In this document: in pieces, positions 33,690 through 37,855 of the stretch
How the letters are laid out: every line of letters begins with the position of its first letter
Numbering within the stretch: the stretch's first letter is position 1
Origin: Methylophilaceae bacterium LSUCC0401
GTDB lineage: Bacteria > Pseudomonadota > Gammaproteobacteria > Burkholderiales > Methylophilaceae
Assembly (NCBI GenBank): GCA_024919035.1
Contig: CP103442.1
Location: forward strand, 930,001 to 994,000
Reading direction: 5' to 3'
DNA length: 64,000 bases
Notes under the pieces: model-generated
Told to the model about the DNA's origin: nothing
Seen by the model: only the letters and a program-made list of their open reading frames with translations
Databases searched by the model: none
Made by a program: the position numbers and the translations under genes

Positions 33690-34633
33690 AAAATATACAA
33701 ATTAATGAAAATGGAAAATTAAAACATTTACTAACAATTGAAGGTCTTTCAAAAAATATCATTAATGAGATTTTTGTAAGAGCAGACTCATTTCTTGACT
33801 CAGAAAAAAATAATGTAAAGAAAGTTGATCTTTTAACTGGAAAAACCATCTGTAATCTTTTTTTTGAAAACAGCACGAGAACACGAACTACATTTGAAAT
33901 AGCCGCAAAAAAACTATCTGCTGATGTAATTAACCTTAATGTAAATACATCATCACAATCTAAAGGTGAATCAATTTTAGACACCATAAATAATTTAATT
34001 GCTATGCATGCGGATATGTTTGTCATTCGACATGGTCAATCGGGTGCTGCGCACTTTATTGCAGAAAATATTAACCCAAAAATTAAAATTGTAAATGCGG
34101 GTGATGGTTACCATGCCCATCCAACTCAAGGATTACTTGATGCTTTTACTATAAGACATTACAAAAAAAAATTTACAAATCTTAAAGTTGCCATTGTGGG
34201 TGACATAAAACATTCTAGAGTTGCTAGATCAGAAATTAATGCATTAAATATTTTAGGTGTTCCTGAAATACGAGTGATTGCTCCAAAGACTTTAATGCCA
34301 TATGGAGTTGAAGAACTTGGTGTGATTCCATATGACAACTTTGACGAAGGCATAAAAAATGTTGATGTAGTCATGATGCTTAGATTGCAACAAGAAAGAA
34401 TGGATAATGCACTGATTCCAAGCCAAGAAGAATATTTCAAAACTTTTGGATTAACAGCAAAAAGGATTAATTATGCAAATCCAGATTGTATTATTATGCA
34501 TCCAGGTCCGATGAACCGTGGTGTGGAAATTGAATCGAAAGTTGCAGATTCACATCAAGCAGTTATTCTTCCGCAAGTAAGTTTTGGGATTGCAATCAGA
34601 ATGGCAGTTATGTCGCTTTTATTGGAGGAATGA
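33686..34633 (+). CDS. pyrB: Aspartate carbamoyltransferase catalytic subunit
   Basis: Second step of pyrimidine synthesis: carbamoyl phosphate plus aspartate to carbamoyl aspartate. The carbamoyl-phosphate motif [11 protein letters not shown], the [11 protein letters not shown] motif and MLRLQQERM are intact in 315 residues. No regulatory pyrI follows; instead the next gene, overlapping by 4 bases, encodes a dihydroorotase-like protein without a zinc site, matching the pyrB-pyrC' arrangement of pseudomonads in which the inactive partner is needed to assemble the ATCase. Confidence 0.95.
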
Positions 34634-35910
34634 TGAGGTATCTTATAAAAAATATAGAGATTTTAAATAATGATCATCACTTTCAAAAAAAAGAGTTTTT
34701 ATCCATTACAAAAGGTAAATTAAAAGAACATGCAGATGTTGATCTATTAAATGAAAAATTAAAATATGAGATTATTGATGGGCAAGACTGTATTTTTTTG
34801 CCTGTGGTCACTGATCTCTATGCAGACTTAAAAACTCCTGGACAAGAATATAAATCAATATTGGATCAAGAAATATCGGCTGCCACTGCCGGTGGTATTA
34901 CAACGGTTTGTTGCCAACCAGATACAGACCCGGTTCTTGATGAGCCCAGTTTAATAAAAGATTTAATTACTAAGGCTAATAAAGTTTTTCCAATTAATAT
35001 CAAGCCAATAGCAGCAATAACAAAAGATCTAGAAGGTCAGCAAATTGCTGAGATGAAGGAATTATACGATGCGGGAGCTATTGGATTTTCTCAAGCTGAA
35101 AAATCTATTATCAACACAAAAGTTTTATTAAGAGCATTTGAATATGCCAAAACATTTGGGTTTACTTTATTTTTAAGAGCATCTGAAAATTTTTTAACTG
35201 AAAATACATTCGCAAATGAAAGTGCAATTGCAACCCGGCTAGGTATTAGAGGATCGAATAAAAATGCAGAAGTGATAGAAGTTCTTAAATATATTGCCCT
35301 CTCTAAAGAGATCGGTACCAAAATTCACTTGTCTAAAATATCTTGCAGAGAATCATTAGAAATCATTGCAAGAGCGAAAAATGAAAATATTAATGTCTCA
35401 TGTGATGTCTCTATTAATCAGCTTTTGTTTACTGATCAAGATATCGATTTATACAATAGCAATTATCATCTGAGCCCGCCACTTCGATCAAAATCTGATC
35501 AAGACTCAATTCTTGAAAGTATAGAATTAAATATTATCGACGCTGTTTGTTCAGATCATCGACCAGTAGAAGATGATAAAAAAAGATTACCTTTTGAAGA
35601 GTCTGAGAGTGGCGCCTCAAGCTTTGAAACATTTATTCCCTTGACATTTAAAGCAGCCAAAATACATAGATTAAATTTAGAGCATTTACTATCCAAAATT
35701 AGTTACTCGCCATACAAAATAGTCTATGGAGAAAGTTATGATTACTTAAATAATAAAAATACTGATTTTTGTATTTACAATAAGTCACACAATTGGGTTG
35801 CTTCACCCAATGAGTTAAAAAGTTCTGGAAAAAATGTGCCATTCAATTGGGAGCTTGAAGGAAGAGTGACGCATACCTTTGTAGATGGTATGAAAATCTA
35901 TCAACTTTAA
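34630..35910 (+). CDS. pyrX: Non-catalytic dihydroorotase-like subunit (PyrC'/PyrX)
   Basis: A 426-residue member of the class I dihydroorotase/amidohydrolase family. The first zinc motif, normally DxHxHLREPG, reads [11 protein letters not shown], with Tyr64 and Asp66 in place of the two histidines. The metal histidine usually found in a TPHHL-type motif is also gone ([10 protein letters not shown]), although the late SDHRP remains. Catalysis is therefore not expected. In Pseudomonas such PyrC' proteins form a dodecamer with PyrB. Two tandem ATGs follow the GGAGGA Shine-Dalgarno; I use the first. An active PyrC should exist elsewhere. Confidence 0.86.
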
Positions 35911-35931: not shown

Positions 35932-35959
35932 TTGCAACAAATTTAAATCGCAATATAAT
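35932..35959 (+). promoter_or_regulatory. Sigma-70 promoter of the PAAKK repeat gene
   Basis: A -35 element TTGCAA (35932-35937) and a perfect -10 TATAAT (35954-35959) are 16 bases apart. The predicted transcript starts near 35966, leaving a leader of about 44 bases with an AAGGAAT Shine-Dalgarno at 35998-36004. The -35 lies inside a perfect 10-bp palindrome TGTTGCAACA (35930-35939). Confidence 0.75.
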
Positions 35960-36009
35960 AACCACTTGTAGTTTAATGTTTTACTTTTTTTTTAAATAAG
36001 GAATAAGAT

Positions 36010-36315
36010 ATGTTAGATAAATTAGTTAATGCCCTCATGGGAAAAGAGTCAAAAGAACCAGCTGCTAAGAAACCAGCTGCTAAGAAACCAGCTGCTAAGA
36101 AACCAGCTGCTAAGAAACCAGCTGCTAAGAAACCAGCTGCTAAGAAACCAGCTGCTAAGAAACCAGCTGCTAAGAAACCAGCTGCTAAGAAACCAGCTGC
36201 TAAGAAACCAGCTGCTAAGAAACCAGCTGCTAAGAAACCAGCTGCTAAGAAACCAGCTGCTAAGAAACCAGCTGCTAAGAAACCAGCTGCTAAGAAACCA
36301 GCCGCTAAGAAATAA
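36010..36315 (+). CDS. Lysine/alanine/proline repeat protein, histone H1-like
   Basis: A 101-residue basic protein. Residues 1-16 (MLDKLVNALMGKESKE) form a short amphipathic helix; the rest is PAAKK repeated exactly 17 times to the stop. The composition resembles the tails of AlgP, bacterial histone H1-like and HupB-type proteins, which bind DNA or RNA without a fixed fold; binding here is inferred from charge only. It has its own promoter, a good Shine-Dalgarno and a terminator, so it is an independent one-gene unit. Repeat periodicity of 15 bases keeps the frame through copy-number change. The downstream neighbour yggS is unrelated. Confidence 0.85.
   Translation: MLDKLVNALMGKESKEPAAKKPAAKKPAAKKPAAKKPAAKKPAAKKPAAKKPAAKKPAAKKPAAKKPAAKKPAAKKPAAKKPAAKKPAAKKPAAKKPAAKK
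36058..36312 (+). repeat. Coding minisatellite, 17 copies of a 15-bp unit
   Basis: The unit CCAGCTGCTAAGAAA is repeated 17 times head to tail. Sixteen copies are identical and the last differs only by a silent GCT to GCC at 36303. Such uniformity at synonymous sites points to recent expansion or continual homogenisation by slippage. The unit multiple of three means any gain or loss changes protein length by five residues without a frameshift. Confidence 0.97.
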
Positions 36316-36340
36316 TAACGTTTTATTTCTAACATATCTT

Positions 36341-36372
36341 AAAAAAACCAGGCTTTTGCTTGGTTTTTTTTT
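36341..36372 (+). terminator. Intrinsic terminator after the PAAKK gene
   Basis: AAAAACCAGGC pairs with GCTTGGTTTTT around a TTTT loop (one G-U pair) and continues into nine T residues. It lies 26 bases after the repeat gene's stop and 12 bases before the yggS ATG, so yggS needs its own promoter. Confidence 0.88.
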
Positions 36373-36383
36373 ATAATAAAACT

Positions 36384-37055
36384 ATGAACCTACAAAACTT
36401 TCAATCAATAAAAGAGCAACTGAATCAGTTTGAATATGAAACAAAAAAAAGAATCGAACTGATAGCTGTATCAAAAAAACACTCTGTAGATAAAATTCAA
36501 TATTTAATTCAAGCGGGACAAAAAAACTTCGGGGAAAATTATGCGCAAGAAGGTATTGAAAAAATTAAGTTAATTAATAATCCAGGAGTAAATTGGCACT
36601 ATATTGGCCCCATTCAAAGTAATAAAGCTGCACAAATAGGAACCTACTTTGATTGGATTCATAGTATTGATAGATTAAAAATTTATCAAAAAATAAAAAA
36701 CCAAGCAGAATTAATAGACAAAAAAATAAATTTTCTTATTCAAGTTAATATCAGCGGTGAAGATACAAAAAGTGGTTTAAATATCTCCAATCTTGATGAT
36801 TTTTTAATAAATATCGATACAAATAGCTCTCATTTAATTTTTAGAGGAGTCATGGCTATTCCATCTAATACTGATAATGAAGTTCAGCTCAGTTCTGAAT
36901 TTAAGCTAATGCAAACAACCTTTGATAACTTGAAACAAAAATTTTCATCAGTTGACACTTTATCGATGGGAATGTCTAATGATTATCTTTTAGCATTAAG
37001 GTATGGGGCTACTATGGTTCGTATTGGCTCAAAAATTTTTGGAGATAGAGTATGA
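36384..37055 (+). CDS. yggS: Pyridoxal phosphate homeostasis protein YggS
   Basis: TIM-barrel PLP-binding protein of the YggS/PROSC family, controlling free PLP rather than catalysing a known reaction. The PLP lysine is in ELIAVSKKHS (about residue 28), and GENYAQE, HYIGPIQSNK and SMGMSNDYLLAL are family motifs. The ATG at 36384 gives 223 residues; an earlier in-frame start at 36360 lies in the terminator and is rejected. A TATAAT at 36372-36377 ends 6 bases before the ATG. It overlaps proC by 4 bases, the usual pairing. Confidence 0.94.
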   Translation: MNLQNFQSIKEQLNQFEYETKKRIELIAVSKKHSVDKIQYLIQAGQKNFGENYAQEGIEKIKLINNPGVNWHYIGPIQSNKAAQIGTYFDWIHSIDRLKIYQKIKNQAELIDKKINFLIQVNISGEDTKSGLNISNLDDFLINIDTNSSHLIFRGVMAIPSNTDNEVQLSSEFKLMQTTFDNLKQKFSSVDTLSMGMSNDYLLALRYGATMVRIGSKIFGDRV

Positions 37056-37855
37056 CATCAGAGATAACTTTTATCGGATGCGGAAATATGGCGCAAGCGA
37101 TGATTTCTGGTTTATCTGCTTCAAAAAATCGCTACCAAATTAATATTATTGAAAATGATCAAAAAATTATAGATAAAGTCAAAGACCATCTACCTATAAG
37201 AGTTATTAAAAGCATTGATTACACTCAATCCGACATTATTATTTTAGCAGTGAAGCCAAAAGATATAAAAGAGGTTTGTAAAAAGCTCAAAGTCAAAGAC
37301 TCCATAGTTATTAGTATTGCCGCAGGCATTCAGTTAAAAACTATTGAAAAATTTATGAATGGGTACAAGAAACTGGTCAGAGTAATGCCTAATTTATGTG
37401 CTTTTGAAGGCAAAAGTATTAACGCCATTTATTTTAATGATGCTATTGATGAAAAATCTAAAAAAAGTATAGATATTATTTTTAAAAGTATTGGTTCAAA
37501 TATATTTTTTGATGAAGAAATCATGATCGACAGAGCAACAGCGATTTCCGGAAGTGGTCCAGCTTATGTGTTCTACTTTATGCAGGCATTAATAGAGGCC
37601 GCATTAAAACTAGGATTACCTAAGGAAGAGTCAAGAAAACTAGTCTTTGGCACCCTAGAAGGTTCTTGCGCTGTGGCAAAAAAAAATATTGATAACTTAA
37701 ATCAATTAATTAAAAACGTTTCCTCAAAGGGTGGAACAACAGAAGCTGCCATAACTAGTTTTGCCAAAAATAATTTTAAAAATATTATAGAAAATGGAAT
37801 AAAAGATGCAGCAAATCGTGCCTCAGAAATTAACGATGAAAATTCAGCATCATGA
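37052..37855 (+). CDS. proC: Pyrroline-5-carboxylate reductase
   Basis: Last step of proline synthesis, NAD(P)H-dependent reduction of pyrroline-5-carboxylate. The Rossmann motif IGCGNMAQAMI is at the N-terminus; AVKPKDI, RVMPNLCA and SGSGPAYVFYFMQAL are family signatures, with the C-terminal dimerisation helices SSKGGTTEAAI. 267 residues, complete. Expressed with yggS through a 4-base overlap; both proteins relate to amino acid/PLP metabolism. Confidence 0.95.
   Translation: MTSEITFIGCGNMAQAMISGLSASKNRYQINIIENDQKIIDKVKDHLPIRVIKSIDYTQSDIIILAVKPKDIKEVCKKLKVKDSIVISIAAGIQLKTIEKFMNGYKKLVRVMPNLCAFEGKSINAIYFNDAIDEKSKKSIDIIFKSIGSNIFFDEEIMIDRATAISGSGPAYVFYFMQALIEAALKLGLPKEESRKLVFGTLEGSCAVAKKNIDNLNQLIKNVSSKGGTTEAAITSFAKNNFKNIIENGIKDAANRASEINDENSAS

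Follow-up and report, generated by a model that had tools for sequence, protein, structure and literature searches.

The window, a 64,000-nucleotide stretch of the genome of Methylophilaceae bacterium LSUCC0401 (a single contig of 1,307,234 bases), contains a short gene belonging to a conserved gene family found in two small-genome genera. These genera are designated g1, which includes the window genome, and g43, and we take them to be the marine OM43 group and Ca. Methylopumilus, respectively. Family members occupy the same position next to yggS, begin with a constrained N-terminal helix, and continue into a basic tail encoded by an in-frame tandem array that turns over rapidly. The constant helix and neighbors combined with a tail of variable length suggest an H1-like protein of variable length. 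The family appears restricted to one clade as far as our sequence searches of family genomes, order genomes, and a genome collection reach.

Gene, repeat array, and flanking signals

The features of the locus, in window coordinates, are:
34630..35910, + strand: dihydroorotase-like gene, presumably pyrC' (named from its sequence), upstream neighbor and synteny marker; no Pfam hit at 1e-5.
35932..35959, + strand: predicted sigma-70-like promoter TTGCAA-16-TATAAT, from a scan; TATAAT kept in the genus.
35998..36003, + strand: Shine-Dalgarno-like AAGGAA, found by eye; relatives have a purine-rich stretch before the ATG.
36010-36315, + strand: open reading frame for a protein of 101 residues, MLDKLVNALMGKESKE and then (PAAKK)17.
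36010..36045, + strand: N-terminal helix MLDKLVNALMGK (AF2 prediction), the part of the protein that dN/dS shows to be conserved.
36046..36057, + strand: short linker ESKE, which differs among the species whose sequences were compared.
36058..36312, + strand: 17 x 15-bp units encoding (PAAKK)17, of which unit 17 differs silently at 36303.
36341..36370, + strand: putative terminator hairpin ACCAGGC..GCTTGGT plus T run, from the fold, the conservation of the stem, and a unique match in the window.
36387..37055, + strand: downstream neighbor and synteny marker with PF01168, which we take to be yggS.
37052..37855, + strand: proC, the next gene, with PF14748 and PF03807.

An earlier note on this DNA had read the frame as a short helix followed by 17 PAAKK pentamers, 16 of them identical at the DNA level. 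The open reading frame and its translation agree with this, placing 16 residues ahead of the repeats, and the unit read-out gave 16 copies of CCAGCTGCTAAGAAA and a final copy, CCAGCCGCTAAGAAA, with one silent Ala change. Tandem Repeats Finder describes the array (36056-36312) as period 15, 17.1 copies, 99% matches, and score 507; none of the other six rows in the window scores above 73. Based on the codon use of 58 window open reading frames, the probability that all 16 independently drawn units agree is ~2e-22. AAG makes up 17% of the Lys codons in these frames, yet it encodes the first Lys in 17/17 units. None of 64 window open reading frames scanned for the start motif matched; the gene itself lay outside those 64, because the overlap rule favored longer frames that overlap it, and the result does not bear on the gene.

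The same note had assigned the gene a promoter and a terminator of its own, and the conservation of the TATAAT and of the stem, together with the predicted fold, supports this assignment. The promoter scan found one site in that stretch versus 1.0 expected by chance. The predicted promoter is believable because the position of TATAAT, 37-56 nt 5' of the ATG, is kept in 22/22 g1 sequences. TATAAT is absent from 11/11 g43 sequences, and TTGACTA is present in 10 of these 11, the other being cut short. The automatic terminator scan found none at the gene. Folding of the 70 nt at 36316-36385 gives -18.9 kcal/mol (z -6.9) and a 13-pair hairpin (36341-36370) with a T run. The stem ACCA(A/G)GC..GCTTGGT is present across both genera in 24/25 records, including that of the window; the 25th record is truncated where its contig ends. 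The stem match occurs once in the window, and Rfam gave one sub-threshold leader match, which lies over the terminator.

Active dihydroorotases carry a metal-binding HxH motif. The PyrC-like protein encoded at 34630-35910 has other residues where HxH is expected, and it is probably a non-catalytic PyrC' partner of PyrB. By eye, a pyrB-like frame lies directly 5' of the repeat gene in part of the genus.

Distribution of the family and constraint on its helix

The family was traced by a yggS search in 61 genomes and by reading upstream of yggS. Relatives have the pattern M[LI]xK[LF]xxxxxG followed by basic repeats. In g43, the relative in G110, MIKKLISAIFGSSKPAETNSTLPATISKPSTSVSAKKK(PAAKKK)n, is encoded between pyrC' and yggS-proC. 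A profile search of 187 family genomes located the gene in 22/31 genomes of g1. Four more (G016, G024, G030, and, with broken frames, G029) contain the gene, or the 3' portion of it, upstream of yggS, and all or part of the gene is therefore present in 26/31. The other five are uninformative: the contig of G022 ends in the terminator, and yggS was not found in G002, G012, G021, or G025. In G027 the gene is at a contig end, and yggS was not found. The gene is present in 14/16 g43 genomes, beside yggS on the same contig in 13 and at a contig end in G120; the remaining two are uninformative, with neither gene nor yggS in G111 and a contig that ends in the terminator in G119. In both genera yggS adjoins the gene wherever the contig reaches that far.

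In other genera, G033, G125, and G139 have a pyrC'-like frame just before yggS, and the gaps to the next in-frame ATG are 2 (by eye), 18, and 46 bp, respectively; therefore, there is no room for the gene. Among 18 stretches 5' of yggS from other genera, 14 hold a long PilT-like frame (named from its sequence), L118 (split) and L126 (short) hold PilT-like pieces, and L124 and L128 belong to the three pyrC'-like cases above. In a SecA tree of 24 genomes, the 19 genomes with the gene all fall on the same side of a branch with 100/100 support. Leaving the tree root aside, the simplest history is that the gene arose once, in the common ancestor of both small-genome lineages. The profile gave 15 matches outside g1 and g43 among 399 genomes of the order, which were sampled from a larger group; none of these matches spans all 30 model positions. 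The genome-collection scan returned 66 stretches with the peptide pattern, of which 3 were confirmed, the confirmation being strict for so short a query; all 3 are ascribed to members of the genus (G020, G017, and G004). A phage origin was considered and dropped, as none of the eight viral-contig stretches with the peptide pattern was confirmed. The draft genome G121 has two versions of the gene (L074 and L080) on separate contigs that differ in linker and K/R order; this bin may combine two strains.

The helix codons are constrained. Codons 2-11 have a dN/dS of ~0.07 among 22 g1 sequences and 0.14 among 11 g43 sequences, values computed from ten codons in related pairs with a pS of 0.66, which is near saturation. 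G008 has the motif without the Gly, and the reading frame is broken at the locus in two drafts, G013 and G029. The encoded proteins are strongly basic in 25/25 full-length records from 24 genomes, with lengths of 38-121 residues and net charges of +9 to +47; records with N gaps or cut arrays were left out of this set. AF2 predicts a helix at residues 2-9, with a mean pLDDT of 81 over the first ten residues, and coil beyond it with block means of 54-66. The hydrophobic moment of the helix is ordinary, being reached by 19-22% of shuffles for the g1 helices and by 9% for the g43 helix.

Turnover of the repeat array

Unit numbers differ between close relatives. Downstream flanks are at least 97% identical in 5 of 36 pairs with complete arrays, and the unit number differs in 5/5. 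The Ala-Lys/Ala-Arg unit counts in these pairs are 14/12, 14/11, 12/11, 12/14, and 12/14, where the g43 counts include one unit in the linker and three of the pairs are drawn from three genomes and are not independent. G122 and G123 share 100% identity across the 200 bp upstream and 99.4% across the 900 bp downstream, and they have 12 and 14 units. Synonymous units also vary. Among sister species of the window genome, G010 uses GCAGCTAAGAAA, and the 3' half of the G020 array, an array with an N gap within it, uses GCTGCTAAGAAG. The G007 array is built from blocks of differing synonymous units. The same region disrupts assemblies. Of 19 fragmented g1 assemblies with a placed yggS, 8 end 400 bp or less upstream of yggS, where rounded contig counts predict 0.3. 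The break lies within the array in seven of these eight and in the terminator in G022.

The differing unit numbers and synonymous units have the appearance of repeated duplication, loss, and homogenization. Slippage or homogenization that changes length by single units, as the earlier note had envisaged, is supported by the close relatives and the assembly breaks; a copy number fixed across relatives with synonymous divergence, the outcome that would have spoken against it, was not observed, as copy number varies among the close pairs.

Candidate functions and known systems

The helix resembles the start of other proteins. Of the 15 profile matches that the 399 order genomes gave outside g1 and g43, 8 start at model position 1. 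Five are the start of PcnB-like frames (L163, L169, L171, L172, and L174, of which only L174 was scanned and has PF01743), two are the start of HDOD-type frames (L164, scanned, with PF08668, and the similar L167), and the eighth is L165. Within g1, the start of SecA matches the profile (L178 and L179; L178 was scanned and has PF07517). In part of the genomes read, the SecA and PcnB N-termini share the pattern M-hydrophobic-x-K-hydrophobic-hydrophobic-x-x-hydrophobic-hydrophobic-G; the likeness covers only ~11 residues, and the remainder is an ATPase or a polymerase rather than a basic repeat. An origin of the N-terminus from a duplicated secA or pcnB 5' end is not supported: the pattern is shared, yet the starts found in a single genome are often not close. 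The PcnB start MIKK/MIKR plus basic linker is found in larger Methylophilaceae (L208-L212 versus L213-L231) and is missing or rewritten in both small-genome genera. The N-terminus of SecA contacts ribosomes and SecYEG or phospholipids (review, PMC8082313, in excerpt), and a docking helix is a fair guess given these contacts and the SecA/PcnB-like start.

The window protein matches Pfam PF07382 (HC2) with 51.2 bits against a cut-off of 40. The HC2 model also matches the N-terminal extension of DksA and the tails of other proteins, whereas Pfam gave no hit for the g43 relative at 1e-5. Judged from these sequences, the HC2 match is compositional, since the DksA extension passes and the g43 relative does not. 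NCBIfam NF038053 (Burkholderiales histone H1-like) gave 42.3 bits, which does not reach its cut-off of 80. The window genome DksA (L144:1283-2041; G000:C1:1237482-1238240) has a K/P/A/V-rich extension of ~137 residues before DksA_N, and the extension in G028 (L153) is shorter. Other K/P/A-rich tails in the family belong to proteins that we take from their sequences to be TatA-like (L155), L17-like (L152), L21-like (L147), and DUF2892-like (L145). Small K/A/P-rich proteins in g44 (L136-L140, L148, and L149) end in a hydrophobic/Lys stretch such as GAFFKKLLG and are the mirror image of the g1/g43 design; they were rejected as homologues, having another locus and the reversed order, and are at most convergent.

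Our preferred reading, which we give about an even chance, is an H1-like, disordered polycation that would bind nucleic acid, be docked by its N-terminal helix, and drift in length. The 12-residue helix would dock the protein on the inner membrane surface, the ribosome, or a partner protein, and the disordered Lys/Pro/Ala tail would bind nucleic acid through its charge. The 15- or 18-bp tandem array would gain, lose, and homogenize units by replication slippage or unequal exchange, and selection would act to keep the helix, an open reading frame, and a basic composition rather than an exact length. A basic nucleic-acid-binding tail with a docking helix is plausible and in line with the AF2 model, the composition, and the SecA/PcnB resemblance. 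Hc2 and the AlgP tail both bind DNA (PMC2848022 and PMC9239181, in excerpt). We infer nucleic-acid binding from the composition together with these precedents, docking from the likeness to the SecA and PcnB N-termini, and likewise any use the cell may make of the length variation. A more specific proposal, which we consider rather unlikely, is that a SecA-type helix on the inner membrane or translocon and a slippage-adjustable PAAKK cable on DNA or polysomal RNA would tether membrane to nucleic acid, with a single origin in the ancestor of the two lineages. If so, the membrane and nucleoid of streamlined pelagic methylotrophs would be joined by a link that varies in length in their populations.

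A plain nucleoid protein like Hc2 or BpH1, with a helix that dimerizes or binds another nucleoid protein without contacting the membrane, would account for the tail composition and the HC2 score, and the unit number varies as in Hc2 (PMC2848022, in excerpt). However, the conservation of the helix exceeds what a DNA-binding tail needs, its start is SecA/PcnB-like, and an extra DNA packer is not obviously needed because three HU/IHF-family genes are already present. We regard this explanation as possible but doubtful. Distinctly less probable is an RNA- or ribosome-bound protein with a tail on rRNA or mRNA. Its helix would dock at the ribosome as the SecA N-terminus can (PMC8082313, in excerpt), and the likeness to SecA and PcnB, the latter an RNA enzyme, fits, but the motif is short and the identified neighbors pyrC', yggS, and proC are non-ribosomal.

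A tail that joins polyphosphate or PHA granules to the chromosome as in AlgP or PhaF is very improbable. The AlgP KPAA repeats bind DNA and AlgP is needed for even spacing of polyphosphate granules (PMC9239181, in excerpt), and an HC2-like protein is found on Herbaspirillum PHB granules (PMC3783465, in excerpt). Against this, PPK1 has no match in 25/31 and PPK2 none in 29/31 genomes of the genus, many of them incomplete, both are unmatched in the complete window genome and in the single-contig G018, and there is no room for a phasin-like domain or a 124-residue helical domain. An AlgP-like polyphosphate role is unlikely because the window genome lacks a PPK1 or PPK2 match, and polyphosphate-granule function was rejected as the conserved role after these searches. 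A functionless low-complexity frame held open by slippage would explain the fast array turnover, the second plus-strand frame and the antisense frame that are also open across the array, and the frames broken at the locus in two drafts. It is hardly credible given the constrained helix, the conserved TATAAT and terminator, the shared position in two genera that the 100/100 branch places together, and a basic tail in 25/25 full-length records.

In two genera with genomes of ~1.3 Mb, a single unstable minisatellite gene is retained at a constant position. The family offers a natural series of proteins (38-121 residues) for asking what the length of an H1-like tail does. It could also serve as a fast strain marker for pelagic Methylophilaceae, and the array accounts for the repeated breaks in draft assemblies of this group. 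The functional claim would gain interest if the helix proved to be a membrane or ribosome anchor. No paper naming this gene was among the literature matches listed. The terms 'histone', 'lysine', and 'nucleoid' are absent from the excerpted main text of the OM43 transcriptome paper PMC5120137, and 'histone' is absent from the excerpts of PMC10872708.

Length-variable proteins of Lys-rich pentamers are already known. Chlamydia Hc2 (hctB) and Bordetella BpH1 likewise have Lys-rich pentamers, and their size differs from strain to strain as repeats are gained and lost in frame (PMC2848022, in excerpt). Hc2 differs in its length of 165-237 residues and in varying by 36-residue elements, which are higher-order units of pentamers plus one hexamer (PMC2848022, in excerpt), whereas the proteins described here have 5- or 6-residue units. 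By eye, the arrays contain no Hc2-type 36-residue element, and some of their units stand in alternating pairs. Hc2 and BpH1 also differ from this family in the conserved 12-residue N-terminal helix found here, and the likeness is not claimed as common descent.

Pseudomonas AlgP has a 124-residue helical domain and acts on polyphosphate granules (PMC9239181, in excerpt), in contrast to a 12-residue helix in a genome without a PPK match. PhaF is similar in joining a K/A/P-rich DNA-binding tail to a docking part (PMC9239181 and PMC3783465, in excerpt), but its docking part is a phasin domain. Neither the helical domain of AlgP nor the phasin domain of PhaF has a counterpart at the N-terminus here, where AF2 predicts only the helix at residues 2-9. 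Compared to these systems, the distinguishing features are the conserved 12-residue helix, the short units, and the restriction to one clade across the genomes searched.
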